Shown: piece after piece, positions 3,119 through 62,258 of the stretch
How positions within the stretch are numbered: position 1 is the stretch's first letter
Layout: each line of letters begins with the position of its first letter
NCBI GenBank assembly: GCA_964036195.1
Contig: OZ038460.1
Coordinates: 13,457,504-13,521,503, forward strand
From: Sphaerolaimus hirsutus
Taxonomy: Eukaryota > Nematoda > Chromadorea > Monhysterida > Sphaerolaimidae
Length of the DNA stretch: 64,000 bases
Reading direction: 5' to 3'
Position numbers and translations under genes: made by a program
Notes under the pieces: generated by a model
What the model saw: only the letters and a program-made list of their open reading frames with translations
Databases searched by the model: none
What the model was told of the DNA's origin: nothing

Positions 3119-3343
3119 TAGTGATGGAAAAGCGCCATGGCGCTGGCGCCTGGCGCTAGCGCCAAAGCAAAAAGCGCCATGGCGCTTTTGGCGCTTGGCG
3201 CTAAAACGCTCTGGCGCCATTGGCGCTTGGCGCTGGGGTCTGCGAAAGCGCCATGGCGCTTTTGACGCTTGGCGCCATTTTCCGGTGGCGCTATTGGCGC
3301 CTGGCGCCGGCATTTTAAATGGCGCCAAAAAAGCGCCAACCAT
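3119..3343. repeat. GGCGCC/GGCGCTTGGCGC subterminal array (left arm)
   Basis: About 200 bp of alternating GGCGCC, GGCGCTTGGCGC and AGCGCCATGGCGC words that are strongly self-complementary. Long frames on both strands are artefacts of the repeat. Related blocks occur at 14006-14213, 29149-29250 and 35690-35765, with a fragment near 7025. Confidence 0.8.
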
Positions 3344-3862
3344 GATAATATGAAATTGTTATAATACAGTAAAATCGCCACTCCAGTTGATCAATTTTGA
3401 GGACAAATGAATAAATAAGTTAATTTTAGGGCAGCCTTTATATAGGTACCTACATCCAATAAAACCAAAGGTGTTAAAATGTGCTGGCGATAAATCCCCT
3501 TTTATGCTTTGCTCCCAATTCTTTCTTGCTGTCTAAATAAGGGGTTCAGTCTGGCAGGGGTTGGAGGGGGGACGGTGGAGTTACCTTAAATGCTGCAGTT
3601 ATCTATACACCCCCAGGGTGGAATCTATCTATCTAACCTGAAACATAATTTTAGGCTACTATCCCTCAAGCCCCCCAATCAACCTGCAACCAGATACGGA
3701 CCGATTATTAGAGAAATTGTGCCCCAATTGTCACAAAAAATGCTGATTTTCATACTTTTAATAGTATTCACCTTAAAAATCACTATCGCGATTTTTCAGA
3801 CTTCAAAATCGTCATCTTTAACGTGTATTATCACCTATTTTCAACTGTTTATGGCTATATAC

Positions 3863-4282
3863 TGTTGTGCACACGGGTAACGGGGATGACTGCGTACTGA
3901 GTCCGTGGCGCACAGATGAGAAACGTGCAGTGAGTTTCAGCTGGATTGGCATGTGGACCTTGGGCAAGAGGCGAAGCCAAGTCCACAAAGCCAACAACGG
4001 GAGGATATTTGTGTTTGAGATGTTGTGTGGTTGCGTTTTGGTGGAACGTCGCTCGGCAACACGGATCTCAAAGTTTTAGCATCTCATATTCATAGATGGT
4101 CAACCCCCGAAGGGGACATGAATGATGAGGGAAAAGTGAGTTAATGAACATCAACTGACCTAAACACCCAAGTGGTCACTACTCAAGATTGGTTGAAACA
4201 TAAAAGTTAACGGTTCAGACCAATCACCCCAAACCTATCCAACCATAGGAATGCAAGTGTATATAATGTAGTGGACTCTAAC
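3863..4282 (-). repeat. Outer left LTR (3' LTR of the composite)
   Basis: Starts TGTTGTGCACACGGG and runs to GACTCTAAC. It is nearly identical to 13349-13775 but lacks the final TACAACA present there. In the orientation set by PBS-B the LTR begins TGTTGTAGTTAGAGTCC and ends GTGTGCACAACA, so this is the 3' LTR of a - strand element. It contains GTGGACCTTGG...CCAAGTCCAC, a potential stem-loop, and a TATATAA word near its inner edge. The 70-codon frame inside is not regarded as a gene. Confidence 0.85.
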
Positions 4283-4290
4283 CCAAAGTG

Positions 4291-4308
4291 TGGTGATCGT
4301 ACGGGTTT
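4291..4308 (+). promoter_or_regulatory. Primer-binding-site-like sequence for gag A
   Basis: TGGTGATCGTACGGGTTT lies upstream of gag A and nearly matches the sequence adjoining the right LTR (TGGTGATCGTACTGGCTT on the - strand, 13331-13348). It begins with TGG, as a site paired to a tRNA CCA end should. Eight bases (CCAAAGTG) separate it from the truncated LTR, so the proper 5' LTR of unit A is missing. The tRNA was not identified. Confidence 0.6.
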
Positions 4309-4461
4309 AATTGTGAGCCCAAAGCGAACCCACTACCGATTGTCCCCCAGCGACATCGGCAGCTCCTTCCGAGCCCGTGGCAGCGCCGCCAGCAAAAGCG
4401 GTCTCCATACTTCTTGGCTGTCCAGAGCAAGTGACGCCAATCGAGCAAGAGCAGCGGCACA

Positions 4462-6597
4462 ATGATGTCCGACACTGCAAATGGCGACCTGACAGCGGTC
4501 GCACAGCCCGGCGATCCAGCAGTGGTCGCACAGCCCAGCGATGACGCGCAGGGCCAAACCACCTACACTGAACGGGAGTTCAGTGAGCAGGTCAATGAGT
4601 GGTGTGACTCCCGCAATCGACCAGCGTTGATTGATGCTATAACCACACTAAATGAGTGGCGCAAAGCAGACTGGCCGTCAGGCAAAATTGCCGCAAAGGA
4701 CAGCACATACACTTTGGGCCGCAAGCTGCTGCGACTGGCAGATGCCCACTTCAAAGCAGTTTCTGATGACCAAATCACGCTCAAAAATCCAGTGCAAGAT
4801 CTGGGCGGTGACAGTGACGATGACAATGCACCAGTAATCCAACCCACACTCCAGCCACATGGCTCGCTGTCACCACCACCTGCCCCAGACACAAAGCTGA
4901 GTGCGGGAGATGTAACAACTGTGATAACAATGCTGCAGCAGCAACAGCAGCAGATCCAGCAGCAGAACACTCGCATCGAGCAACTGTCACGACAAATGGC
5001 CCAAAGTGCAAAAGCCAGCATACCTCACCCCCAACCTCAACCAAGACACAATGACGATCCATGGAAATGGACAACCGAGGATCGGCTGGCAATGATCCAG
5101 GAAGGGCCACTTCTGCGCAGGCTGATTGAGTACATTGAGAACTTTGTCATACACCCCGATGATGGACTGCAACCGCTGGGTGAAATCACATTGCCAAAGG
5201 ACAAAATGGGGGTCGGGCATGTGCCAGCAGCGGCCAGCAAGCAGATGAAATTTGATGGCGACAAGACAAGTGAAACAGGCCCATTCAAATGCTGGCTACA
5301 CATGGTGGCACAACATGCAATAAGCATCCCCGACTGCCAGCAGCAGTTTTTTTGGAACAAAGTCTTCATGCAGTGCCTGATCGGAGAAGCTAAAGAACGG
5401 TATCGAGCGATTCGCACCAACCGGCCCCACGACATCCTCTACGTAGTAGACAAGCTGACAGGCATTTACTGGCTAGAGCACCAGCTGCACTCAGCTACAG
5501 ACTGGTACAATCTGAAGGCTGTGTCCGGGGAGTCAGTATCGGCTCTGCACACGCGTTTGGCAGCCAATTTTTATCATGTCAGTGAAACAATGTCAGACTA
5601 TGATCGAGAACGCATGATTGGCAAGAAGCTTTTTTCGGAAATCCCAAAGATGGCAGTCCCAGTGTCATGTTGGTACATGTGGAGACAACGCTGGCGAGAA
5701 GAAAACTGCACACTCGACATGGCCATCACTATGATGGATGCTGCACGACTAGAAGTTGAGCAGGTCAAAACACAGCGCAAAGAAGACCAGCAAGATCGAC
5801 CAGATCGCCCGCGCTATGGAAACAACTGGCGCACTGAGCCCAAGTCGTACAGCACATATGGTGACAAGGCGGGAGTCAGAGCACCATTCGACCCAAAAAA
5901 CTACAAAGGGCCATGGTGCACCTTCTACATGCACCGCAAACCAATGCCACATGATCCCAGTGAGTGCTACATTGACAGCAAATCGCCGGTGTTCAAACCC
6001 GACAGACTGGAGAACATCAGGCAGGCGCTGGCCAGACAGGGAAAATCTGATGAGGATGCCAGAAGACACATGCGCAAGAAGTGTGAGGAGCTCTCCATCC
6101 CATACCAAGATGACAACCCATCAAGCCGTTGCACAAAACAAGACTATGAAGAAGACAACGAGGGATGGGATGGCGACACAGATGATGAAGACGAGAAGTG
6201 GGGAGACCTGGAGGGCTGGATACCAACTGTAGCCAGCACGAAAGAGGACATGGCCCTACAGACAGAAAATGGCTCACCCGACCCAATGGCCACAATTATG
6301 TTCATGGGAATCCCCATCACCGGTCACATCGACACCGGGTGCAACATAGGACTGTTCATTGAGGATTCAGCATTGGAAGAAGTTTGGGCAAAGGCCAAGG
6401 CTGACCCACAGAAAGAACGGGCAAAATTCCAACCATACCCAAGGGGCCACATCCAAACGGCAGGGCACAACATCACAGAGGAATGCCTGCGGATATATGA
6501 CATGAAAGTGAAACACCAGACCCCAGATGGGAAATGGTGTACTGACACCCTGCCAGCAGTCGTGAAACTAATAAAGTCCTTGCCAGGCGCAGACTAG
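4462..6597 (+). CDS. LTR-retroelement Gag with retropepsin motif (gag A), cut short by insertion
   Basis: A 711-codon frame starting at a double ATG. The N-terminal part resembles the gag B product at 12689-9495 at roughly half of positions. A glutamine-rich coiled-coil segment lies near residues 150-175. A histidine/cysteine cluster C486-x4-H491-x5-H497-x4-C502 could be a divergent zinc knuckle. An acidic stretch precedes the aspartic-protease signature D624-T-G in a GHIDTGCN context. The stop codon TAG is the first three bases of the inserted element at 6595. The rest of the frame resumes at 7498, so the protein is truncated relative to gag B. No pol domain follows. Role, from family knowledge: capsid formation and proteolytic maturation of retroelement particles. 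Confidence 0.85.
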   Translation: MMSDTANGDLTAVAQPGDPAVVAQPSDDAQGQTTYTEREFSEQVNEWCDSRNRPALIDAITTLNEWRKADWPSGKIAAKDSTYTLGRKLLRLADAHFKAVSDDQITLKNPVQDLGGDSDDDNAPVIQPTLQPHGSLSPPPAPDTKLSAGDVTTVITMLQQQQQQIQQQNTRIEQLSRQMAQSAKASIPHPQPQPRHNDDPWKWTTEDRLAMIQEGPLLRRLIEYIENFVIHPDDGLQPLGEITLPKDKMGVGHVPAAASKQMKFDGDKTSETGPFKCWLHMVAQHAISIPDCQQQFFWNKVFMQCLIGEAKERYRAIRTNRPHDILYVVDKLTGIYWLEHQLHSATDWYNLKAVSGESVSALHTRLAANFYHVSETMSDYDRERMIGKKLFSEIPKMAVPVSCWYMWRQRWREENCTLDMAITMMDAARLEVEQVKTQRKEDQQDRPDRPRYGNNWRTEPKSYSTYGDKAGVRAPFDPKNYKGPWCTFYMHRKPMPHDPSECYIDSKSPVFKPDRLENIRQALARQGKSDEDARRHMRKKCEELSIPYQDDNPSSRCTKQDYEEDNEGWDGDTDDEDEKWGDLEGWIPTVASTKEDMALQTENGSPDPMATIMFMGIPITGHIDTGCNIGLFIEDSALEEVWAKAKADPQKERAKFQPYPRGHIQTAGHNITEECLRIYDMKVKHQTPDGKWCTDTLPAVVKLIKSLPGAD

Positions 6598-7497
6598 GGT
6601 TCAAACGGGACCAGTTTTTCGGACCGGGACCGGGACCGGGACCAGAAATTTTCTAATGTCGGGACCGGGACCGGGACCGGGACTGGGGGGTCGGGACCGG
6701 GTCCGGGACCGGGACTGGCTTTTTTCAATTGTCGGGACCGGGACCGGGACCGGGACTGGGGGGTCGAGACCGGGACTGGGATTTGCCGAACCATGTACCG
6801 GCACCGCGGTCTTGTTTGAACCTTAGTGGTACGTAATATTCAGCCAATGTTGTTCCACACACCTCCACTGTGTGAAAAACCACGCTCAATGTATAAGCCT
6901 TTTCTTATAACATTATTCAAGCACTATTTCATTGCCATCTTCACTCAATTGTATATGGAGCCCGGCGAACGGGGGAGGGGGCGGCGCCCCCCCCCTAAAT
7001 TTTGGCTCTATAGTTAAGAAATAGAGCCATGGCGCTGGCGCCATTTGTAGGCACCAACGTCTACTATCTAGGTTTCTTTATATACCTATATTTCGTACTA
7101 GAATCATGCTGGGGACCTTTCTAACGCTACTGTTACATTACAAAAAAATACATCGTAATCGTTGGGTGGGTATTGGCGCGCTTGCGCGCAAAAAATTTTT
7201 ATATGTGCCCACATAGTCTTTAGAAAATTGCCATATCTGGCAAAAAAAATTGAAAAGATAATTGAAAATTACGTTTTTTCATCCCTTGTCGGGACCGCTC
7301 TAAAATTCCGGGACCGGGACCGGGACCGGGACTGGGTGGTCGGGACCGGGACCGGGACCGGGACTGGCTTTTTCAATTGTCGGGACCGGGACCGGGACCG
7401 GGACTGGGGTGTCGGGACCGGGACCGGGACCGGGACCGCCCCAGTCCCGACTTTTTGCCGAACCATGTACCGGGACCGCGGTCCCGTTTGAACCCTA
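6595..7497. mobile_element. hAT-like GGGACC element inside gag A
   Basis: Termini TAGGGTTCAAACGGGACC and its reverse complement, flanked by a perfect 8-bp duplication, GCGCAGAC (6587-6594 and 7498-7505). Both ends carry arrays of GGGACC words. A second internal right-end copy is visible near 6760-6826 (TTTGAACCTTA), so the insert may itself be composite. It contains the shared GCGCGCTTGCGCGC motif near 7176-7190. Related copy: 49706-50233. GGGATC-filled relatives: 47649-48231 and a fragment at 52245-52318. Confidence 0.88.
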
Positions 7498-8108
7498 GCG
7501 CAGACCCACTGCTGATTGGAAGAGCAGCCATATGGGGCCCCCTGCAAATAGTCAAAACGGCGCATCATGAATTGGAGCGACTGTCACAAAAATACAGGCA
7601 GGGCAATTTGCGCATTGCCACAGGGAACCGCATCCAGCACACCCAGGAACCAACCGACCCAGCTAATAGGTTGAGCCCCCTGGCACAGAACACAGTGTTC
7701 AAAGAGCAGGCTGAATGCTGCGTGAGAGCAGATGCCCAACCCAAACACAAGCGACGCACTGTGAACAGCATTCCAATGCCCCAGCTGGCACTACTGCCAT
7801 GCCCCAGGGATGCCAAGCACCACAGGAAACGCATGCAGCACAAGGGTGACAGCATCACTACCAAGAAAAAGGAACCAGACAGCAAGCGCCCTGCCTACAG
7901 CCATGCGACAACCATCAAGGAGCAGCCAAGCAGCCACACAAACAACATGGTGCTGCTGGAGCAAAACACACTGCTGGGCCACACCATCGATAAGCTCAAA
8001 ATGGTCCAGGCTGAACTGCATGCAACGATCCACCGCTTAGAAGCAAAGAAGATCAAGCTGCAAACCGCATGGGCTGGGACTGTGAAACCAACTGCCTGGC
8101 CGACCTGA
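7498..8108 (+). pseudogene. Detached C-terminal part of gag A
   Basis: After the 8-bp duplication the frame continues with residues matching the segment just after the protease region of gag B (both contain AAIWGPLQIV). It stays open to TGA at 8106-8108. It includes a basic, Lys/Arg-rich segment and a possible coiled coil near the end. It has no start of its own, and the upstream insertion supplies an early stop, so it is a displaced fragment. Confidence 0.75.
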
Positions 8109-8260
8109 CCCGGAAAATGGATTTGTGCAACTGTGATTTATTTATTGTGATTTGATTCTATTTTCAATTTTTATTTTTGATAGCTTTGACTTTTTTCCTA
8201 ATCAGGATGTGTTTTACTGTTTTACGTTTTCTGCTTTTTTGTCAGTTCCCCCCTGTAGGG

Positions 8261-8276
8261 TGAACTTAGGGGGGGC
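8261..8276 (+). promoter_or_regulatory. Polypurine tract of unit A
   Basis: TGAACTTAGGGGGGGC directly precedes an LTR start, TGTTGTAGT, at 8277. A purine run at this position is where plus-strand synthesis starts in LTR elements. It fits the + strand orientation of gag A. Confidence 0.7.
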
Positions 8277-8680
8277 TGTTGTAGTATTACTACAAAATTC
8301 TCTATTCTATTCTCTATATTTTACATTCTATTCTAAGTAGGATTTTGGGTATCACTTCTGAACCCCTAAACTTCATGTTTCAGCCAATCCTTTATAAGTG
8401 GCTACTTTTGTATGTCAATCAGTTCAGTTCTTTTGCCTGTTCTCTTTTGCACTTCAGTAAAATGAAGTTAAACTAACAACTGTGGAACGTGTCGCAAGGC
8501 GACGGTGCCAGAATAAATATTCTACAAGCACACTCCGAACACATTTCCTCTCCGGTTGCCGGCTTCGTGGACTTGGTTCTGCATCACTAAGGTCCACACC
8601 CCGGTCATCCAAGTGAAATCAACGATGTTCCCTTGCGGCCAGGTATAGACTGCCATTGCTCTGACCTGTGCCCGCAACCA
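8277..8680 (+). repeat. Internal LTR of unit A (3' LTR, + orientation)
   Basis: Begins TGTTGTAGTATTAC and ends CCCGCAACCA, directly against the next LTR. It contains a CCAAT box and TTTATAA near 8380-8398, the block GTGTCGCAAGGCGACGG, and AATAAA near 8512: the usual order of promoter, R region and polyadenylation signal. It is clearly related to the outer LTRs read in reverse (GATTGG, GTTCAG and GTCCAC blocks align) but strongly diverged. Confidence 0.75.
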
Positions 8681-9130
8681 TGTTGTGGGCACGGGTGCCT
8701 GAGCAGTGGCAAACTTACACCCATCCCACAGAAAATTTACTGAAGTGCCGATTTCACTGAAAAACAGCCACGGGTCTTTGACTGAGGTGATGTCAACCCT
8801 GGCGCTGTCAACCGAGGAGGAGTGAAACACATTTATATTGTGGAATTGATTATTTAGGGGCAAAACGTCGCCTCGCGACACTGGCTTCACAAGTTCAAAT
8901 GTGTATTCATTTCTTGAGCAGGTGGGGCGAGGGAAATGAGCTGCGAGGGAACACAACTGAAATGACTGCGAAACGTGGCCCTTATAAATGTTGGCTGGCG
9001 CATGCGCTGTGCGGGTGCCGCCGCGGCAACCCGCTGCACTGCGCGCCAGTGGCGCGCAGTGCCGCGGGCGACTGGGGCGACACTCGCGTGCACACGCGCC
9101 CGCCGTCAGTACTTGCCCATGCGGGCAACA
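8681..9130 (-). repeat. Internal LTR of unit B (3' LTR, - orientation)
   Basis: On the - strand it begins TGTTGCCCGCATGGGC and ends GTGCCCACAACA. Shared landmarks with 8277-8680 in the opposite direction: AGCCAAC followed by TTTATAAG, and GTGTCGCGAGGCGACG. It is GC-rich at its outer end. The two LTRs are joined tail to tail without spacer. The 225-codon - strand frame across this region is not believed to encode a protein. Confidence 0.75.
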
Positions 9131-9142
9131 CCCCCCCTCAAG
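9131..9142 (-). promoter_or_regulatory. Polypurine tract of unit B
   Basis: On the - strand the sequence is CTTGAGGGGGGG directly followed by the LTR start TGTTGC. It lies downstream of gag B in the correct orientation. Confidence 0.65.
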
Positions 9143-9494
9143 CCCGGGGCAGGGGTTCTGAAAAAAAAAAAAAAAATAAAATAAAATACAAAGTACCATC
9201 CAGATGCCATAAAATAAAACCTGTTAGTGATGCCAAACTTTTCACAAATGGGTGGGAATTAGTTAATTGTAAAAATATAAAACCCAAGGGCAAACAAAAA
9301 CCCATTTACAAATAAATAATTTGACCTGTTTCACATAAATAAATAAATGTTAAAATTGCAAGAGAAATGATACCCGTATTCATGGAAAAATGTAAAAACA
9401 CTGCACGCGATAGAAATGTACCCAAAATGCACCAATCTGACAAAACAAAAACTTTTTCAACAAAATTTCCATTCCTACAAAATTGCCATGTCGC

Positions 9495-12400
9495 TTACTC
9501 CTTTGTCAGTTTCTTCAGGCTGGTCATCATGATTGGTTGCCGCTTTCCATGCCAGTACTTTGGCCCAAAGGCATCAGCAAGCAGGCACACGAGATGCGGC
9601 TGTGATGCGGCGGTGACAGCGGGTGGGGGGTTATGTGGTAAATAGGGCATAAATATGCTTGGGTTTGTGTTACACATTGGGTGGACTGTGTGGCAACAAT
9701 TTGTGGGTTTCGTTGAAGGCGCTTTCACTGAATTCGTGCAGGGAGGGACTGAATTTGAGTGATGGGCTTCTGGGTGCAGTGACAATCGCTCAATGGCCGA
9801 TGATAACCGGTTGACGGAGCCACGCAGCGTTGTGAGCTCGTTGCTGTCCCCGCATGGGTCCGGGGCCATGTGTGTGGGTGTGGGCAGAAGGGGTAGTCGT
9901 ACTGGAATTCTTCTAGGGATGTCTGTGCATGTGGCCACGAAATTTTGATTCCAAAAGATCATTTCTGTGAGCTTATTCAACGTGTTTGTATGGTGGGTGG
10001 CTGCCACTGTGTGGTTGGCGTTTATGGAGTCGCAGCGTATGCCGCGCTTGTTCACATCTGCATGAGCTCGCTTGTGAACGGTTGGATTTTGCTCTGGTGA
10101 GGACAAAACTGGGGAAACGTAATGCACACCTGGGTCATGTTTCGGCTGCATGGCATTCAAAGGCACTGGTGCCTGAATGTTCACCCGGGCAACTATGCTT
10201 TCAAGCCTAGGGTGGTTCTGAGTAGTGGGGGAGGTGCAGTGTGCAGTTGCATTTTGAGCCTGGCTGTGGCAAACTGAGCTGACCCATTCCATGTTTGCAC
10301 CCTTGGTGCTGGGCTCACAGGATGGGGGGTTGATTGGTTGGCAGAACTTGCGGTCCCTGTCCCAAAGAGGATGCTCTTTCAATCCTTGAGCTGTGGGGGT
10401 TTCTTGCTCTTCGAATGCTAGTGTGTGGGTCACAGCGCCCAGTTTCGCTACTTTTGTCTGCGTGGGAATGTGGCAGTCTGTGCCTGTCTTGTCGCGTGTT
10501 CTCAGCACTTCCGCTTCTTGTTCATACTCTTTTGACAACCGTTTTAGTTCCTGGTGTGCTGTTTGGACTATTTGGAGGGGGCCCCATATCGCTGCCCACC
10601 CAATTAGGAGTGGGTCTCCTGGGGGAAAGAACTCCATTAACTTTACGACGGCTGGCAGTGTGTCTGTTCGTTGTGCCCCATCTGGGGTTCTGTGCACCAC
10701 TTCCATGTCATATAGTCTTAGCCATTCTCCTTTGATGATATTTCCAGGCGTATGGATGTGGCTGCCCACATAGGGTCTGAACTTTTTTCTTTCCTTGTCG
10801 GGGTTCATGTTGGCTTTCGCCCATGCGTGCTCCAATGTGGAGTCCTCAATGAACAGTCCAATGTTACAACCAGTGTCTATGTGGCCCATGATGGGTACAC
10901 CACAGAAGGTGATGGTCGCCATTGGGTTGGGCGAATCCATTGTGCGTGCACATGTGTCGATTTTTGTGCTTGCAATTGTGCGAACCCAATCGTCTGGGTT
11001 ACCCTCGTCTTCTGGGTCTTCGCTGTTATCCCACAAGTCATTGTCCATTTCATACTGTTCTTGTGTGTACCTACTGGGTGGTGTTTCAGTGAAAGGGATG
11101 CCCATCTGGGCACACTTTTGCGTCATGCTGTTTTTGGCCTCTTGTTCTGATTTTCCCTGTCTAGTGAGGGATTGTTTGATGTTGTTTGCTCTGTCAGCTT
11201 GGTATGCTGTAGAGTCTGGGTTTATGTAACACTTGCTGGGGCTGTGGGGCATGGGTTTTGGATGCAGGTAGAAAGTGCACCATGGTCCTTTATGGTTGTC
11301 AGGGTCAAAGGCAGTGTCTTTTGGCATTTTTGGCTCGGATTGCCAGCTTGTCTTATACTGTGGGCATGTGCGTTGGCTTCTTTGTTCTTCTCGGCGCTGT
11401 GTTTTAGCGCGTTCGGCTTCTTTCCGGGCGGCATCAATTTTTGCGATGGCTCGGTTGATGGTGCAAGCGCCGTCTTGCCAGCGCTCCCGCCACATGTACC
11501 AGCAATTCACTGGGGCCAGTTTGGGGGCTTCGGTGAAAAATTTGTCTCCAATCATTCTCTGGCGTTCATGGTCTGACATGGTTTCACTGACGTGGAAAAA
11601 ATTTGTGCAAAGTCGCGTGTAAAATGAGGACGCGGACTCACTGGGGTCGGGTTTCAAATTGTACCAGTCTGCCACCGAGTGGACTGTGTGGTCAGCTTTG
11701 TATGCCTCTACTAGGCTGTCGAGTACGTAGAGGATGTCATGGCGTTTGTTTATGCGCACCGCCAGATACTTGTTCTGTGCGTCTCCCGTCAGACACTGCA
11801 TAAAAATGTTCATCCAAAACAGTTGCTGCTGGCTTTCTGGAATGCCCATGGCTTGCTGTGTTATCATATGGAGCCAGAAGCGGAATGGGCCAGTTTGGCT
11901 TTTTTCGTTTCCATCAAATTTGATCTGTTTATTTGCCGTGGATACGACGTGTCCAATGCCGATTTTGTCTTTTGGGGCCCGTATAGTGCCTAGGGGTTGC
12001 AGGCCATCTTCTGGCGCGATGACGTACCGCTCCATGTATTCTATGATTTGGTTTAGTAGGGGGCCCTGAGTTAATGTTGCGAGTCGGTCTTCTGTTGGCC
12101 ATCGCCAGGCGTCGTCAGATTGTGGCACTGTGTTTCGGGGTGAATTTCCGAGGGAGTTGTTGGCTATGAGCTGTGTTAGTTGCTCGATGCGCTTGTTTTG
12201 TTCATCAAATCGCTGGTTGAACATGGAGGCCATTGCGGCCAAGTCCAACGTTTGCGCTTCCATTTTTGCAAGCGGTGTCGGGGACGCGGAGTTGCGCGGT
12301 TGCGTGGTTGATCGCAGTAGGGGTTCGTTTGCTGCGGTGATGTTACCGCTATCACTTTCTTCCTCGCTGCTGCCACTGTCATGGCGCTCCGGGTTTTCAA

Positions 12401-12689
12401 TCGTGATTGTGGTTTTTTGTGTGCTTTTGAAATACGTGTCTGCCAGGTTTATCAACCGGCGGCCCAAAGTGGAGTTACTGTCTTTGCTGGCTATTGTGCT
12501 TTTTGGCCAATTTGATTTTCGCCAGTAATTCACGGATTTGATTGCATTAATTAACACTCCCCTTTTGCGGGATGCTGTCCATTCGGACACTTTTTGGGTG
12601 AGCTCTTGCTCTGAATATTCCACGGGTGCTTGTAGCACTGGGTGCGATGCTGTGGCCTCTAGTGGGCCTGTGGGGGGATTCGTTGTCAT
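9495..12689 (-). CDS. LTR-retroelement Gag-protease polyprotein (gag B), intact
   Basis: An uninterrupted 1064-codon frame. It is homologous to gag A throughout the N-terminal 700 residues, including C471-x4-H476-x5-H482-x4-C487 (possible divergent zinc knuckle) and the aspartic-protease signature D605-T-G in GHIDTGCN. About 350 residues follow the point where gag A is interrupted; this tail is rich in Thr, Pro, His and Asn and shows no YxDD, RNase H or integrase motif. The start is the first ATG after the leader, about 640 bp from PBS-B. An open frame this long implies recent selection or recent insertion. Expected role: particle assembly and maturation of a non-autonomous element. Confidence 0.88.
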   Translation of the reverse strand: MTTNPPTGPLEATASHPVLQAPVEYSEQELTQKVSEWTASRKRGVLINAIKSVNYWRKSNWPKSTIASKDSNSTLGRRLINLADTYFKSTQKTTITIENPERHDSGSSEEESDSGNITAANEPLLRSTTQPRNSASPTPLAKMEAQTLDLAAMASMFNQRFDEQNKRIEQLTQLIANNSLGNSPRNTVPQSDDAWRWPTEDRLATLTQGPLLNQIIEYMERYVIAPEDGLQPLGTIRAPKDKIGIGHVVSTANKQIKFDGNEKSQTGPFRFWLHMITQQAMGIPESQQQLFWMNIFMQCLTGDAQNKYLAVRINKRHDILYVLDSLVEAYKADHTVHSVADWYNLKPDPSESASSFYTRLCTNFFHVSETMSDHERQRMIGDKFFTEAPKLAPVNCWYMWRERWQDGACTINRAIAKIDAARKEAERAKTQRREEQRSQRTCPQYKTSWQSEPKMPKDTAFDPDNHKGPWCTFYLHPKPMPHSPSKCYINPDSTAYQADRANNIKQSLTRQGKSEQEAKNSMTQKCAQMGIPFTETPPSRYTQEQYEMDNDLWDNSEDPEDEGNPDDWVRTIASTKIDTCARTMDSPNPMATITFCGVPIMGHIDTGCNIGLFIEDSTLEHAWAKANMNPDKERKKFRPYVGSHIHTPGNIIKGEWLRLYDMEVVHRTPDGAQRTDTLPAVVKLMEFFPPGDPLLIGWAAIWGPLQIVQTAHQELKRLSKEYEQEAEVLRTRDKTGTDCHIPTQTKVAKLGAVTHTLAFEEQETPTAQGLKEHPLWDRDRKFCQPINPPSCEPSTKGANMEWVSSVCHSQAQNATAHCTSPTTQNHPRLESIVARVNIQAPVPLNAMQPKHDPGVHYVSPVLSSPEQNPTVHKRAHADVNKRGIRCDSINANHTVAATHHTNTLNKLTEMIFWNQNFVATCTDIPRRIPVRLPLLPTPTHMAPDPCGDSNELTTLRGSVNRLSSAIERLSLHPEAHHSNSVPPCTNSVKAPSTKPTNCCHTVHPMCNTNPSIFMPYLPHNPPPAVTAASQPHLVCLLADAFGPKYWHGKRQPIMMTSLKKLTKE

Positions 12690-12839
12690 TTTGACGTTTT
12701 CTCTGCGCTCGTATGGCGCCTAGTTGCCCTTCGTTCTGGGCGGAATTTACTTTGCGCGGGACTCCTGCGGTGCTGTATTGCTGCCGCAGGCTATGTTTTG
12801 CTCTCGGGTTCGCTTGGGCTTGAGGGGATTCAAGCCAGT

Positions 12840-13310
12840 GTGGTCACCAGTGGCCAGTGTGGTAGTTCTGCTGGTGTCACTGATTGACAGTCAGGGTATG
12901 TTTGGGTCCTGGCATTGCTGATTAATGGTCAAAGTGGTGTTTTTAATTTACCAGTGTCACTGATTGACATCTGGTATGCTGGTGAGGGTTCCCAGTGTCG
13001 CTGCTTGACAGCTGGGATGGTTAGGCTGTCGGTGTCATTGCTTGACAACCGACCTGTTTGCCTCAGTTCCTGGTGTCGCTGCTTAATGGCTGGGGTTAAG
13101 CTGTCAATGTCTCTGTTGGACTGCTGACCTGTTTGCCTCTGTACCCAGTTGCTGCTTTGATGGCCAGGGTTTTTGCATTTGACATCTTTTGTGTCATGCA
13201 TGCGCTCTTGTGGCGCGCGGCGGGGGGCTGCTCTTGCTGGCAGGTGCTGCCGCAGGTTCGATTGGGGTGCCACCAATGTCATTGTTGGACAGTCGGGGGC
13301 GGGCGGGTTC
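12840..13310 (-). repeat. Degenerate tandem repeats in the leader of unit B
   Basis: On the + strand the words GTGTCACTGATTGACA, GTGTCGCTGCTTGACAGC, GTGTCATTGCTTGACAAC, GTGTCGCTGCTTAATGGC and ATGTCTCTGTTGGACTGC recur every 40-60 bp. They fill the region between PBS-B and gag B. Packaging or leader function is possible but not shown. Confidence 0.6.
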
Positions 13311-13330
13311 ACATCGGCTTGAGAAGTTTC

Positions 13331-13348
13331 AAGCCAGTACGATCACCA
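13331..13348 (-). promoter_or_regulatory. Primer binding site of unit B
   Basis: On the - strand, TGGTGATCGTACTGGCTT immediately follows the LTR end CACAACA, the exact position expected for a tRNA primer site. It is almost the same as the site of unit A at 4291-4308. Confidence 0.75.
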
Positions 13349-13775
13349 TGTTGTGCACACGGGTAACGGGGCTGACTGCGTACCGAGTCCGTGGCGCACA
13401 GATGAGAAACGTGCAGTGAGTTTCAGCTGGATTGGCATGCGGACCTTGGGCAAGAGGCGAAGCCAAGTCCACGAAGCCAACAACGGGAGGATATTTGTGT
13501 TTGAGATGTTGTGTGGTTGCGTTTTGGTGGAACGTCGCTCGGCAACACGGATCTCAAAGTTTTAGCATCTCATATTCATAGATGGTCAACCCCCGAAGGG
13601 GACATGAATGATGAGAGAAAAGTGAGTTAATGAACATCAACTGACCTAAACACCCAAGTGGTCACTACTCAAGATTGGTTGAAACATAAAAGTTAACGGT
13701 TCAGACCAATCACCCCAAACCTATCCAACCATAGGAATGCAAGTGTATATAATGTAGTGGACTCTAACTACAACA
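13349..13775 (-). repeat. Outer right LTR (5' LTR of the composite)
   Basis: Complete LTR with terminal inverted repeats TGTTGT...ACAACA, bordered inside by PBS-B and outside by ATAC (13776-13779). It differs from the left LTR at about five sites. The TATATAA word lies about 25 bp from the start of the LTR in the - orientation. Confidence 0.85.
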
Positions 13776-14005
13776 ATACGCCCCTTAAATCACTCCAGCT
13801 TTTAGCTGTGAGAAACAAAGATCTCCCCATTGAAAGTTACCCAGTCATGATGTTTGACTGAAAAATATATCACTGGGCATTTAAACCATTTTTAACATTG
13901 TAGTGGTTGTTTGAATGGGCATAAGTTCAATGGACTACTAGGACTTCAGCGGTACGTCACACACAGTTATGCACTCAATTTTCTACCATCAAATTGCAGA
14001 ACAAA

Positions 14006-14213
14006 TTTTTTGGCGCTGGCGCTATTGGCGCTTGGCGCCATTACCCTCTGGCGCCATTGGCGCTTGGCGCTGAGCTTCAGAAAAGCGCCATGGCGCTTTT
14101 GGCGCTTGGCGTCATTTTGCTCTGGCGCCATTGGCGCTTGGCGCCGGGATCAGAAAAGCGCCATGGCGCTTTTGGCGCTTGGCGCTGAAAGCCTGGCGCT
14201 TTTTCCATCACTA
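14006..14213. repeat. GGCGCC/GGCGCTTGGCGC subterminal array (right arm)
   Basis: Inverted counterpart of 3119-3343, ending in the terminus CGCTTTTTCCATCACTA. It forms the right end of the element whose left end is at 3119. Confidence 0.8.
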
Positions 14214-16896: not shown

Positions 16897-17063
16897 TGGT
16901 GCCAATCCCAGACCCTGGAAAATGTCAAATGTCATGCAAAGTGTCAGAAGTCATGTAAAATGTCCTGCAAAATGAAAACTCGGTTGCCATTTTGCAGGGC
17001 ATTTTACATGACTTTTGACACTGCATGACATTTGACATTTGACAGGGTTTGGAACTGCCCCCA
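16897..17063. mobile_element. GGGGCAGTCCC-family MITE (copy 2)
   Basis: Left end GTGCCAATCCCAGACCCTG, right end CAGGGTTTGGAACTGCCCCC. Inside, AAATGTCAAATGTCATGCAA and its reverse complement form a long hairpin. Confidence 0.7.
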
Positions 17064-20812: not shown

Positions 20813-22293
20813 GCTGCTGCTAGTGATGTAAAGGCACCGGGGCACCGGTGCCCCGGTGCTGGGCACCGAAGGGCACCAGCACCGGTGCTGGTGCGGTGCC
20901 ATTGCGATCTTCAGGGGTGCCATGCCGGTGCCGGTGCCATTTTTTTCAGAATAGCACCGGTGCCGGTGCGGTGCGGTGCCATTTTTTTGCTGGTGCCAAA
21001 GGTGCTAGCACCAGGCCAAAGTAAAAGCACCGGGAAAGGCACCGGCCAAGGGTTCATGTACTGTGCAATTTTGTCCATTTTGTTTGTTCATATTTCAAAA
21101 AACAGCGATATATTTACCCAACCGTTTTTGCCTATTTTGTAAACCTCCCATCAAATAAATATACGTACTGAGAAATCAATTATACCCGAGATACGTGATC
21201 TGATGAGCGAATCTAAAAGTTTGTTGAATTTTAAATCATTTTTATATTTTATATTTATCTTACTTTTTTGTTCAAAATTTGTTGTCAGTTTATGACAGAG
21301 ATAGTTCCATTCTCTGTACAGCAACGACTCCGATCAGTAGACAATAGTGGCTATGGACATTGTAGTAAATTAAATATTTTGTCTTTCATTTGTAATCATT
21401 ATAATAGCTTCATAAAAGTGATTGCCACATCATTCTGATCATTTTAAGTGCTCAACCATCAAAATCGGTTGAAAATTCATGGAAATATGCACTTCCAAAG
21501 GTGAGACCACTGAGAACCTGCCCGATATTTACTTCAGAAATTTCAGCCCGGTGCGGTGCCTTTCGGTGCTAGCACCGGCAACCCGCCGGTGCCCTTCGGT
21601 GCCGGTGCCATTTTTTTCAAAAGGCACCGGTGCCGGTGCGGTGCGGTGCCATTTTCTGACCGGTGCTCCAGGGTGCCAGGTGCCCTTTTCATGCGTTGGC
21701 AAAGGTGCCGGTGCGGTGCGGTCATAGGGGATTTTGGGGTTAGCATTTTGGGGGGGGGGGTTCACCTGCCGGCGCGTGCTAATAACTCGGGAACCGCTTG
21801 GCGAAAAATGTTGAAATTTGGATATGATATAGTTAAATGTTGGGGCTACGCACAATTTTGACGATTTTTTTTTACGACCCCCCAGACCGGAGATAGGGGG
21901 GGGGGGCAAAAAAACACTGTCATTTGCGTTTTTTTTTGGGTGTCGCCGAGAACATTCAAACTTGAACATCAATAGCTCGGTCATTTGTGAACCGATTTTA
22001 GTCATTAAAATGTTAAAATGATCACAAATGTTCGGAGAGTTCATTTCCGAGGTCAAATCGGAGATACACATTTGTTTATATATCGTCTTAGCCTGATTTC
22101 GAAATGCAAAATTTCCGCAAAAGTTTGCTTTTTGAACATGCTATCCTATTCTCCTGATCGAGAGAAACTCATTAAAGCAAAAATGAGATCGATATCTCTT
22201 TCCAATCAAAAGTTACAGCTACTTTTATCTGCGCGCTACACACACACTCACCACTACCACGCAGTACGCGGTCATTTTCTTCCGCGCCATGAC

Positions 22294-23228
22294 TAGTGAT
22301 GTAAAGGCACCGGGGCACCGGTGCCCCGGTGCTGGGCACCGAAGGGCACCAGCACCGGTGCTGGTGCGGTGCCATTGCAATTTCAGGGGTGCCATGCCGG
22401 TGCCGGTGCCATTTTTTTCAGAATAGCACCGGTGCCGGTGCGGTGCGGTGCCATTTTTTTGCCGGTGCCAAAGGTGCTAGCACCAGACCAAAGTAAAAGG
22501 CACCAGGAAAGGCACCGACCAAGGCTTCATATGCAGTGCAATTTTGTCCATAGTATGTGCTTATTCATATTTCAAAATACAGCGATATATTTACCCAACC
22601 GTTTTTGCCTATTTTGTAAACCTCCCATCAAATAAATATACCTACTGTGAAATCCATTATACCCGATACGTGATCTGATGAGCAAATCTAAAATTTTGTT
22701 GAATTTTGAATCATGTTTATATTTTATGTTTATCTTACTTGTTTGTTCAAAATTTGTTGGCAGTTTACAACAGAGATAGTTACATTCTCTGTACAGCAAC
22801 GACTCCGATCAGTAGACAATAGTGGCTATGGACATTGCAGTGAATTAAATATTTTATCTTTCATTTGTAGCCATTGTAATTGCTTCATAAAAGTGATTGC
22901 CACATCATTCTGATCATTTTCAGTGCTCAACCATCAAAATCAGTTGAAAGTTCATGGTAATATGCACTTCCAAAGGTGAGACCACTGAGAAACTGCCCGA
23001 TATTTACTTCAGAAATTCCAGCCCGGTGCGGTGCCTTTCGGTGGTAGCACCGGCAACCCGCCGGTGCCCTTTGGTGCCGGTGCCATTTTTTCCAAAAGGC
23101 ACCGGTGCCGGTGCGGTGCGGTGCCATTTTCTGGCCGGTGCCCCAGGGTGCCAGGTGCCCTTTTCATGCGTTGGCAAAGGTGCCGGTGCGGTGCGGTGCC
23201 ATTTTTCCCGGTGCCTTTAACATCACTA
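22294..23228. mobile_element. hAT-like GGCACC element nested in its own relative
   Basis: Same termini as the host (TAGTGATGTAAAGGCACC), with a perfect 8-bp duplication, GCCATGAC, at 22286-22293 and 23229-23236. The internal sequence is closely similar to 20821-21760. Confidence 0.88.
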
Positions 23229-23282
23229 GCCATGACCTCGCTGCATAGTGCCTTTTATTTAGCACTTTTCCGCTATTTTTGA

Positions 23283-23693
23283 ATACCGCGTTTCCTCGAA
23301 TTACCCCCTGGGGGTTTATTTTTTCAGAGTGGAAATTTTGAGGGGGTTAGATGAGGGGGGGTTTATTATTTCGCCAGAAATATTTTGAAATCCCAGTATG
23401 AAATTGTCGTTCCAAACGTACGCAGACGTTGTAAAATGCAACAAAAACCATTGAGTATAAGACTCCACGAACTTCTATAAGTATTTACGCAGTATAAACC
23501 TTGTTCTAACGTAACACAGTAATTGTTTTCAACGTGTGTTCTGCTCGGACCACAAACCGTAGCTGTCATTTACATTTAAATGTCATTTACACCCAATATG
23601 AAAGGGGGGGGGGTATTTCGAGGGGAGGTTTATAAATTCATATTGCCCATTTTGAGGGGGGTATTTCTAGGGGGTATTTCGAGGAAATACGAT
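23283..23693. mobile_element. TA-flanked CCGTATTTCCTCGAAATACC element (copy 1)
   Basis: Left TACCGCGTTTCCTCGAATTACC, right GGGGGTATTTCGAGGAAATACG. The interior is rich in GGGGGT/ACCCCC. Relatives: 44375-44819, 52434-52693, 53922-54100, and diverged intronic copies at 25857-26340, 29570-29690 and 30709-30840. Confidence 0.65.
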
Positions 23694-24493
23694 AGATAAA
23701 TGAAAATGAATCCACCGCTAAATCGGAGCAGAGTGTCAGCAGAAAAGTAAACATAAACGATTGTATAGACATAAGAAAAGAGCATGTTTGCGAAAAATGA
23801 ATGTATTAAGTGGTAATTATGGGAACAGTGTATTCAAAAATAGCGGAAAAGTGCTAAATAAAAGGCACTATGCAGCGAGGTCATGGCGCGGAAGAAAATG
23901 ACCGCGTACTGCGTGGTAGTGGTGAGTGTGTGTAGCGCGCAGATAAAAGTAGCTGTAACTTTTGATTGGAAAGAGATATCGATCTCATTTTTGTTTTAAT
24001 GAGTTTCTATCGATCAGGAAAATAGGATAGCATGTTCAAAAAGCAAACTTTTGCGGAAATTTTGCATTTCGAAATCAGGCTAAGACGATATATAAACCAA
24101 TGTGTATCTCCGATTTGACCTCAGAAATGAACTCTCCGAACATTTGTGATCATTTTAACATTTTAATGACTAAAATCGGTTCACAAATGACCGAGCTATT
24201 GATGTTCAAGTTTGAATGTTCTCGGCGACACCCAAAAAAAAACGCAAATGACAGTGTTTTTTTGCCCCCCCCCCCCTATCTCCGGTCTGGGGGGTCGTAG
24301 AAAAAAATCGTCAAAATTGTGCGTAGCCCCAACATTTAACTATATCATATCCAAATTTCAACATTTTTCGCCAAGCGGTTCCCGAGTTATTAGCACGCGC
24401 CGGCAGGTGAACCCCCCCCCCCCCCCCCAAATGCTAACCCCAAAATCCCCTATGGGTGCGGTGCCATTTTTCCCGGTGCCTTTAACATCACTA

Positions 24494-27600: not shown

Positions 27601-30600
27601 ACTTTGTGTAAATTATCTACCAATATATGTAAATCATAAATATTAACCGCTTTTTTAACCAACCCCAAATTTGTGACATAATCCATGCAGCAGTTGTGTT
27701 GGTTGCGTCACTATTGGCCATCATGTTCACACCGTGTGAGTCTGTACACAGAGTGTTTCTGTTCACCCAGCGTATACTTGAAGTCTTCTCGTCCCCTCTT
27801 TCGGCCATCGATGCGAAAAAGCTAATTCTTCCTACAAAAATAGCTTAAATACCTACCTATGTATATAGGTATTTTGGCTTCTAAATGATCAGCGATGACT
27901 TTGGCGGCCCGCACACAACCTAGTTGACACATGTGTCAACTAATGTGTGTCAACTCAGATTTCGGCTTCACGTGTTGCAGAGCGATCTTCTAATACACTT
28001 GCCGCAACGTTGAAAAATAAATATTACAGCAGGTGCATTGAAGATGGCTCTGCAACATGTGAAGCAGCAATCTGTGTTGACACACACACAAGTTGACATA
28101 GATGTGTCAACTAGTGTGTGGGCCGCCTTTAAGGTGCGATTATAGCTAAATTGTGTTAGCTGTATCACAATGACGATAAGCTTAGTTTTATTTTGTCAAA
28201 ATCGTCCATTTTTGAAACGTGAATAACAATTTATAATTATGTAATCGCACCTTTACTGAGAAGAGCTTTCTTTCCAAGAGCTTTCATTTCTGTGGGCTTT
28301 CTGACAAACATGAGAAACGTTTCGCTGCGAATAGGTACAGGTATTTTTCACTGACTGAAGTTTTCAGTTTTCAATTGACTGTGTGTTACTACCCTTACAA
28401 TTTTGATTTAAGTAAAACTTAAGTTGGAAACTTGGTCAGAAATTTTTTGCAAGTTTTTCAAAGCAATATTTACTTTAATGAATTCATGATATTGGATTGA
28501 GTATAGCTAAATCCACTTAAAATCTTACCATAGCCGTTTTACCGCGTATAATACCTCATCTTTAAAACACAATCAATGCGGAGAACTCACCAAGTTTTTC
28601 AAAAAAATGTTTTCAAAGCTACGATTTTTTTGATTTTTCTGGATAGTAATTCGATAATTTCCTGCCATTCAGCAACGGATAAGAAATTCTAAAAAGTACG
28701 AATTTTCATGAAAAATCAGAAATTCTAAAATTACTTATCGTTGTTTTATGACGAATCCAGTCAGTGAGCGACCTTCTGCTTGCCGTGATGGTGCCGCGCA
28801 TGTGCCCCGTGTTCGTATCCTGCCCGCCGCACAAATTTCCATCTACCTGAGTGCCGAGCATTTTCTGTTGCTTTCGTTGTTGAATCTAAAGTTGCCGTCA
28901 AATAAAATCGCTAGTATGACATCTTATTTTCACACTACAATTTCGCAGGGTCGGCAATGTCCTCCGAACAAGCAGATGGAAACAACGTGGGGAGGCCGCA
29001 AAAAGGGCAGGCCAGTGGGCGACGAAAAACCACCAAAACAAAGCACAGGGGTAGAGAAAAAGCCAGGCGACCTCCATCGACTCCGCTGCCGGCCAGTTTC
29101 AAACGAAACAAAAGTGTGTGCTTCTGTGCACTGCGCGGCGCACAGGATTAGTGATGTGAAAAGCGCCAGAACTTTGGCGCCAAGCGCCAATGGCGCCAGA
29201 GCAAAATGGCGCCAAGCGCCAAAATGCGCCATGGCGCTTTTACATAACTACACAGAATCAATCAAAACCAACACCTTTCAACCCTACCAGAATGCTACAT
29301 CACGTCGGTGGGCGTGCCGCAGCAGCACGGTCACCTGCTGAACGCCTACGGGGCGTGGATGGCCGACGCGGCGCCGCCAGACTTGGGCCACCGGCGCTGG
29401 GTTACCGAGCACATTTACGGTGCGCTTCTGGTCGAGTACAAGTCCGAGCCGGCGCTGGAGGCCAAGCGGGTGGCCAACACGTACACCCTGGAGCACATGT
29501 ACGACGGCACAAACCATGTCGTATATAACGGTGAGTCGACTATGTCGTGTGTACATATAAACCGTATATCCTTCAATAAGACCTCTCCCTTGAATAACAC
29601 CCCCTGGTGCACAGGTAAGGAAAAACCAACTCCCTCCTTGAATAACTCCCCTCGCTTGAATAACTCCCCAACTGGTTATTTGATATGTTTATCCACACTG
29701 TGTATTCGAATGATTTGGATGTTCATGAACACAAATTTTAGTACGCATAAAAGATACCTACCATGTTTTTGTTGTTGTTGAACTGTTAAATACCAGTGGC
29801 TGGCAATGGATGTAAAACTGCAGCTGAAACAAACGCATGTCACCATGTCACATATGCATTACAGTCTGCTCTGTTCATGCTAAAACATTCCTTGTCATCC
29901 ACACAGTGTACTGATGCAGGCAGGCAGTCCAGTATATTGAAAATTTTCATTAAAAATAAATGTCTGAAGTGGATACACACCATTAAATATGATATGGAGC
30001 AGATACTGTCCAAAATATAAAAAGTCCCAACTATTCTGAAACATGGACAAATTGGACAAAAATGTTACTGCTCACACAATGTAAGCAGATAACAACTCAA
30101 GGGACAGTCATCCCGGGCATATGAAACCAACCCCCCAGGATACCCACCTATGGTATCCAAATGTTTTGCACATTCATCATTTTGAAATTTTGGCAGTGTT
30201 AGTCATGCAGTGAAAAAGTCCCAATCCCAACTATTCTGCACGGTAGTCTAAAACCGTTTGAACCCAATAGGTAAAATTACCGAAATTCTGACACCAAAAC
30301 AATGATTTCAGACATCCATTATAAGCTCCCACCAAAAAAAAACAACAACAAAAAACCACCGACAGTTTTAAAGTAAACATTTCACACGTCTTTATGTAAA
30401 ATGAGAAGTTGGCAAATCATGGAGCTCTAGTTTGGACAGATACAAAATATGAGTGACATCATTCGTCCCAGGATCGCTGTACTACCAGGCGGCGGGGAAG
30501 AACAAAATACTGCGCGTGGACATCGCTTCGAACAAGGTGTTGGCGGAGGTGGCGCTGCCAAATGCCGTGTTCAGAGGCACTGTTAGTGTTTGCCCAAGAT

Positions 30601-34787: not shown

Positions 34788-35297
34788 ATCCCATTAAAAA
34801 TGGCTAAAGCCAACAAAAAGTGGACGCCATATCCAAACATGTATGCCTTTGAATGCAGAAAAGTAATATATATCATAAAAATCTTGCCATTTTAAGATTG
34901 AGCTATCAAAAGAACTATATCAAGGGTAATTTATACCTTTATTAATGATATAGGTAGGCTATCAACACAGCAAATTTTATCACAAGGATACAATTTCACC
35001 AAACTTTTGCATGGCAGCGTGAGCTTTTTGTATCTTTCAAATGTGCCACACATTGACCCAGCTCACGCTGCCATGCAAAAGTTTGGTGAAATTGTATCCT
35101 TGTGATAAAATTTGCTGTGTTGATAGCCTACCTATATCATTAATAAAGGTATAAATTACCCTTGATATAGTTCTTTTGATAGCTCAATCTTAAAATGGCA
35201 AGATTTTTATGATATATATTACTTTTCTGCATTCAAAGGCATACATGTTTGGATATGGCGTCCACTTTTTGTTGGCTTTAGCCATTTTTAATGGGAT
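34788..35297. repeat. Long inverted repeat: 238-bp arms, 34-bp spacer
   Basis: Arm 34788-35025 and arm 35060-35297 are reverse complements over all 238 positions that I compared by eye. The spacer is 35026-35059. Arms contain mixed AT-rich sequence, not simple repeat. If transcribed, it would fold into a long perfect hairpin RNA. No TSD was found. Identity this high implies very recent origin, gene conversion or an assembly artefact. Confidence 0.9.
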
Positions 35298-62070: not shown

Positions 62071-62258
62071 CCTGGGGGCAGTCCCAGACCTTGTAAAATG
62101 CCTGTCAAATGTCATGCAAAGTGTCAAAAGTCAAAAGTGTAAAATGCCTTGAAAAATGGCAAACGTACGTTTGCCATTTTGCAGAGCATTTTACATGACT
62201 TTTGACACGTTGCATGACATTTTACAGGACATTTTACACGGTCTGGGATTAGCACCTG
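62071..62258. mobile_element. GGGGCAGTCCC-family MITE (copy 4)
   Basis: GGGGGCAGTCCCAGACCTTG on the left, CACGGTCTGGGATTAGCACC on the right. AAATGTCATGCAAAGTGTCA and its mirror make a near-complete hairpin centred on AAACGTACGTTT. Confidence 0.75.

Follow-up and report, generated by a model that had tools for sequence, protein, structure and literature searches.

Structure of the locus

A stretch of 64,000 nucleotides from contig OZ038460.1 of the nematode Sphaerolaimus hirsutus (referred to throughout as the window, whose numbering we use) holds a composite retroelement at 3863-13775, in which two direct copies of one long terminal repeat (LTR), here called LTR_A, stand at the ends and related gag-only elements lie tail to tail inside. 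The initial annotation, made from the sequence alone, had described this region as an ambisense LTR element with two convergent gag-protease genes and no pol. The features are listed below in the order of the window, with PBS for primer-binding site, PPT for polypurine tract, TSD for target-site duplication, ORF for open reading frame and MITE for miniature inverted-repeat transposable element.

3859-3862: left TSD, ATAC, read at the outer end of the left LTR_A
3863-4282, minus strand: LTR_A, left outer copy, the 3' LTR of the minus-strand element; lacks the first 7 U3 bases at its inner end
4283-4290: 8 bases, CCAAAGTG, between the truncated LTR_A and the plus-strand PBS; presumed breakpoint, no PPT
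4291-4305, plus strand: PBS-like site of the plus element, TGGTGATCGTACGGG
4335-4360, plus strand: single bulged hairpin in the gag2 leader, of the type in the gag1 array, from structure and model searching
4462-6597, plus strand: gag2, first part, 711 residues from the ATG at 4462; the stop codon (6595-6597) is the first triplet of the insert
6595-7497: MITE-like insert, 903 bp, with 18-bp terminal inverted repeats (TAGGGTTCAAACGGGACC) and an 8-bp TSD, GCGCAGAC; splits gag2
7498-8108, plus strand: remainder of gag2 after the insert
8268-8276, plus strand: PPT of the plus element (AGGGGGGG) and one further base; G7 from 8269, directly before LTR_C
8277-8680, plus strand: LTR_C, 3' LTR of the plus element, ending in GCCCGCAACCA
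8681-9130, minus strand: LTR_B, 3' LTR downstream of gag1, ending in GTGCCCACAACA; joined U5 to U5 with LTR_C
9131-9139, minus strand: PPT of the minus element (GAGGGGGGG); G7 from 9137, directly before LTR_B
9495-12689, minus strand: gag1, intact gag-like ORF of 1064 residues with a DTG...LIG protease-like stretch (motifs by eye)
12805-12849, minus strand: second PBS-like site, a 45-mer in the gag1 leader, 80% identical to 13304-13348
12870-13297, minus strand: nine bulged hairpins in the gag1 leader, each with a 5-bp stem, 1-nt bulge, 4-bp stem and 7-nt loop; one of the nine is poorly formed
13334-13348, minus strand: PBS-like site directly after the right LTR_A, TGGTGATCGTACTGG
13349-13775, minus strand: LTR_A, right outer copy, the 5' LTR of the minus-strand element, with both ends present
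13776-13779: right TSD, ATAC, read at the outer end of the right LTR_A

Most of the anatomy given in the initial annotation was reproduced by alignment. The outer LTRs are near-identical (98.8%, with 5 mismatches in 420 aligned bases) and are bordered on both sides by the ATAC duplication; together with the termini TGTTG...CAACA of the right copy, this is the near-identical repeat pair with TG...CA ends and a short TSD that characterizes an LTR retrotransposon. The two PBS-like sites placed at the outer sides are there as well, the 12-mer TGGTGATCGTAC that opens each of them occurring exactly twice in the 64 kb, at 4291 on the plus strand and 13348 on the minus strand, with 12 of 12 bases shared, and the site at 13348-13334 follows the 5' LTR as a PBS should. 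No tRNA gene was found in the window.

The two outer repeats differ at the U3 end. The right LTR_A has it complete (TGTTGTAG) and begins TGTTGTAGTTAGAG beside ATAC, whereas the left begins GTTAGAG, preceded by CACTTTGG and then by the reverse complement of the PBS of the plus element. No PPT was found beside the left LTR_A, the longest purine run in the 40 bases before it being at most 3, whereas both inner 3' LTRs, LTR_B and LTR_C, have one. During reverse transcription of an LTR element the plus strand starts at the PPT beside the 3' LTR, and this start sets the outer end of both U3 regions. Because the right LTR_A has its full U3 end and the left is without 7 bases and the PPT, the present form is not a direct integration product, and the outer LTRs do not share the single PPT-set U3 start of an ambisense unit. 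On a template with the present layout two sites might serve for priming, the tract before LTR_B and, less surely, a minus-strand G9 run within the MITE-like insert (6987-6995); neither would yield the end seen at the target. Since no available priming site gives the end that is found, the left junction was either altered after integration or made by repair.

The two PPTs at the inner sides and the two diverged LTRs abutting at 8680/8681 were also confirmed. By homology both outer LTRs and the right inner LTR_B lie on the minus strand and the left inner LTR_C on the plus strand. Local alignment in these orientations gave scores of 136 for LTR_A with LTR_C, 88 for LTR_B with LTR_C and 43 for LTR_A with LTR_B, none of them reached by any of 200 dinucleotide shuffles; the last pairing is the weakest, its best shuffle scoring 35. 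With one partner reversed, the scores of the reversed pairings were reached by 64, 185 and 13 of the 200 shuffles, respectively. All four LTRs have in common a core, GTGTYGC..GCGACG, that occurs nowhere else in the window, and at the LTR_C/LTR_B joint the two U5 ends meet with neither target DNA nor a TSD between them. LTR_B and LTR_C look like different LTR lineages. We rejected the notion that they are old copies of LTR_A, their divergence being far above that of the outer pair, yet gag1 is open and gag2 is broken by the insert alone. The annotation had concluded from the same divergence that the arrangement predates the last integration. This does not follow, the divergence dating the lineages B and C and not the arrangement.

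Gag genes and coding content

The two gag genes face each other, as annotated, and their proteins are identical at 349 of 692 alignment columns (50%). Over 682 codon pairs the Nei-Gojobori method gave a non-synonymous divergence (dN) of 0.37 and a synonymous divergence (dS) of ∼3.1, the latter saturated, and this excess fits long-standing selection at the protein level in both gag lineages. The remainder of gag2, which was compared with gag1 on its own and not joined to the first part, has 22 identical residues among its first 30 and no further significant match to gag1. Each half of the composite has one gag ORF and neither is flanked by two LTRs of its own kind. The annotated absence of pol also holds because the longest stretch outside both gag ORFs, made up of LTRs and untranslated regions, measures 1386 bp (8109-9494).

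The description of both genes as gag-protease stands only in part. Gag-like ORFs are present, the second split by the 903-bp insert, but the protease assignment comes from the DTG and LIG motifs, seen by eye in a part of the protein that has no Pfam or PDB sequence match. In Pfam none of the 13 window ORFs scanned (7 of them inside the element) matched any family, and gag gave no family at E ≤ 1; four gag segments searched at E ≤ 10 gave two weak, unrelated matches only. Weak matches to AraA_N (E 0.055) and to an EF-hand model (E 0.037) fell below the cut-offs and were taken as chance. A PDB sequence search with the gag proteins returned no credible match, and the two AlphaFold models had mean predicted local distance difference test scores of 43.8 and 44.9, the latter, considered for a retropepsin-type fold, being too poor for a fold search. 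Three Rfam matches at E ≤ 1, all far under the gathering scores, were likewise judged to be chance.

Target duplications of 8 bp, like that of the insert in gag2, are typical of hAT-type elements. Sequence similar to this insert is found at about 49701-50241, and MITE-like sequences with internal arrays of GGGACC-type hexamers occur in the insert, there and at about 47641-48231.

Leader sequences and hairpins

The leader of gag1 contains two PBS-like sites, a 45-bp block of PBS plus hairpin being duplicated about 500 bp apart (12805-12849 and 13304-13348). We considered whether gag1 belongs to a separate element starting at the second site, 12849, and rejected this. Read from 13348, beside LTR_A, the first 116 bases of the leader align with the gag2 leader at a score of 74 (best of 200 shuffles 38), whereas from 12849 only the first 41 bases align, at a score of 27, within chance (best shuffle 38). 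Because only the leader from 13348 matches the gag2 leader beyond chance, a duplication within one element is the simpler account.

A bulged hairpin of about 26 nt occurs nine times between the PBS and gag1 and once in the gag2 leader. Across all ten copies, three poorly fitting ones included, 87.4% of the cells are paired, both partners have changed in 8 of the 9 pairs (15 cells) and the covariation score is 0.514. None of 500 shuffles reaches the score or the proportion of cells paired, and 5 reach the number of pairs changed on both sides; because the copies are related tandem repeats, picked by eye and then used to draw the structure, which favors it, these counts are not probabilities. 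When the partners are slid by 1-3 columns, at most 2 pairs show two-sided changes and the score does not exceed 0.152. A model built from the copies, searched against these same copies so that its E-values are not independent, recovers 8 of the 9 gag1 hairpins and the gag2 hairpin at E ≤ 3e-4. The remaining gag1 copy, with an E-value of 0.14, is outscored by the top hit from the rest of the window (0.074). The loop bases CA are invariant. Retroviral packaging signals are often located between the PBS and gag, and it is a reasonable guess that these hairpins are multiplied gag-binding or RNA-packaging sites. The array is a separate candidate for amplified packaging signals in a non-autonomous element.

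Origin of the composite

We give about an even chance to the reading that the locus began as a gag-only LTR retrotransposon and was rearranged when a break near its 3' end was patched with complementary DNA (cDNA) of related elements; a one-off rearrangement seems more likely than a new element that jumps in both directions. On this account a minus-strand LTR_A element would have integrated with the TSD ATAC; the duplication and the identity of the outer LTRs only require one such past integration. It would then have lost its 3' end, with the PPT, 7 bases at the start of the 3' LTR and some amount of sequence upstream. The gap would have been filled by two pieces joined through their U5 ends, one an inverted one-LTR cDNA of a second element (PBS-gag2-PPT-LTR_C) and the other the 3' end (PPT-LTR_B) of a third relative or a recombinant one. 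This would most simply have come about if reverse-transcription intermediates were captured during repair of a double-strand break, and on the gag1 side homologous copying may have taken part. A MITE-like element split gag2. Each element would earlier have moved by the usual copy-out route, presumably with reverse transcriptase and integrase supplied in trans because pol is absent.

The limits of the plus-strand piece agree with this account. On one side the piece begins 8 bases short of its PBS and on the other it runs to the final base of LTR_C, a span close to that of a minus-strand one-LTR intermediate, which is a fit and not a proof. The CCA at the LTR_C/LTR_B joint, the reverse complement of the TGG found in the PBS, could be derived from the primer or the PBS. 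On the other side, gag1 lies between strongly different LTRs, LTR_A at its 5' and LTR_B at its 3' side; because of this difference the right half alone is not a plain product of reverse transcription, and the minus half probably exchanged its 3' end. Several considerations weigh against the patched-element reading. LTR_C itself ends in CCA, and the CCA at the central joint may be no more than this end. CCA also opens the 8 bases ahead of the plus-strand PBS; these may be what is left of a 5' LTR_C now lost, in which case a nested insertion followed by deletion would fit better than a one-LTR cDNA. A deletion following integration of the whole as a unit would yield an identical left junction. 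The break and the capture, moreover, are not directly visible, and the different lineages of the LTRs are deduced from one locus. If the patched-element reading is right, the locus is a natural record of how retroelement cDNA is captured in a genome, here between a point near the PBS and the U5 end, and of LTR exchange among gag-only lineages.

Of the alternatives, the one we would place next, still as unlikely, is that the plus element inserted as a normal LTR_C element into the LTR_B end inside the LTR_A element and that a later deletion took its 5' LTR together with the PPT and the 7 bases of the left LTR_A. The window is rich in repeats, and in such DNA nested insertions and deletions occur often; the CCA before the plus-strand PBS could be a remnant of the 5' LTR_C. 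The scheme nevertheless requires that the plus element hit LTR_B precisely at its last base and that the deletion ended just outside the PBS, and it leaves LTR_B opposite LTR_A around gag1 unexplained. The 5' side, which would hold the partner of any TSD beside LTR_C, is gone. About as unlikely, in our view, is the initial proposal that an inverted pair of related elements was copied and integrated as a unit, in which transcription would run from the right to the left LTR_A, pol would act in trans and the left inner junction would be trimmed later. What stands of it is the inverted gag-only pair inside one LTR pair with a TSD, the PBS directly after the right LTR_A and the two gag ORFs, open except for the MITE-like insert. 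Unit integration itself is at odds with the left LTR_A, whose missing PPT and U3 end mean that a second event must be added, and LTR_B, lying in sense inside the unit, would be expected to stop transcripts early; one ordinary LTR_A element, furthermore, explains the TSD and the identity of the outer LTRs equally well. Still more doubtful is a genuine two-gene ambisense element, in which gags of different lineages would travel as one unit in LTR_A, multiplied packaging hairpins would aid their ride on a foreign polymerase and the loss of the left PPT would be mere decay of this copy once integrated. If multicopy, it would to our knowledge be the first ambisense LTR element; no second copy was found in the window.

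We hold it quite improbable that recombination of co-packaged RNAs or cDNAs within a particle built the composite, which then integrated in one step. The different LTR types flanking one gag are in keeping with such an exchange, and exchange among distant, largely pol-less Athila families appears in the accessible part of one report (PMC2410132), but a single integrated product would carry one U3 start at both ends, and that is not so here. An assembly artefact, in which near-identical LTR_A copies or collapsed repeats joined unrelated pieces, seems to us the least probable of all. The LTR_A copies offer 420 bp of near-identity for such a misjoin, and the layout is known here from assembled sequence and not from reads; the matching 4-bp duplication exactly at both outer ends, however, would arise by chance about once in 256 cases, and LTR_B and LTR_C are so weakly similar that their joint is no obvious misjoin.

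Other repeats in the window

Blocks of GGCGCC-rich tandem repeats lie on both flanks of the element (3128-3327 and 14010-14185). The two share 85% identity across 134 bases, and such blocks recur at about 29.2 kb (29175-29241). Further away, a large composite repeat (20820-24454) comprises a direct repeat of about 0.9 kb (94%) and an inverted arm of 0.57 kb (97%). Palindromes of the foldback type are found at 34788-35297 (510 bp, 96%) and, shorter and related to each other, at 62082-62248 (87%) and 16897-17063 (83%).

Relation to known systems

A literature search aimed at ambisense LTR elements brought up nothing on the subject in titles and the opening parts of abstracts, and one on nested, inverted or chimeric elements brought up no title on such an arrangement. 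Pattern scans of IMG/VR gave 4 matches for gag1, none for gag2, 155 for the capsid-like part and 52 for the protease-like part, and a scan of prokaryote genomes gave 255, none of them confirmed as a relative; a tblastn search of plasmids with the capsid-like part of gag1 found no match. Viral, prokaryote and plasmid collections are poor places for a eukaryotic element, and these nulls say little.

Gag-only LTR elements are known. The plant TR-GAG elements, one of which was observed to transpose in Arabidopsis according to the accessible part of the report (PMC8704663), likewise consist of LTRs and one long gag-like ORF without pol, whereas here the gag has no Pfam family match and two elements lie inverted within one LTR pair. 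In the Athila elements of Arabidopsis, entire families lack pol, keep gag under purifying selection, are thought to be mobilized in trans and recombine with distant lineages (PMC2410132), all of which resembles the situation proposed here; the exchanges described in the portion of that report at hand are of gag, pol and env parts, with no head-on gag pair.

For the joints, the closest parallels are in the products of cDNA capture and end joining. As far as the available part of a preprint goes (PMC10802722), Ty1 cDNA inserts at breaks in yeast have a hotspot at the 3' LTR in wild-type cells and start more often from the PBS inward in nuc1 mutants, and compound inserts of two to four pieces occur, mostly mitochondrial and some of them Ty or mixed. 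Both preferred limits and the compound make-up recall the composite, although the yeast inserts lie at an induced break whereas the patch here would be placed within another retroelement and draw on two other kinds of LTR. End-joined LTR junctions of HIV-1 can contain bases of the PBS or the tRNA primer, as stated in the part of that source at hand (PMC5618025), and 2-LTR circles in plants have been described as end-joining products of full-length linear copies (PMC10959353).

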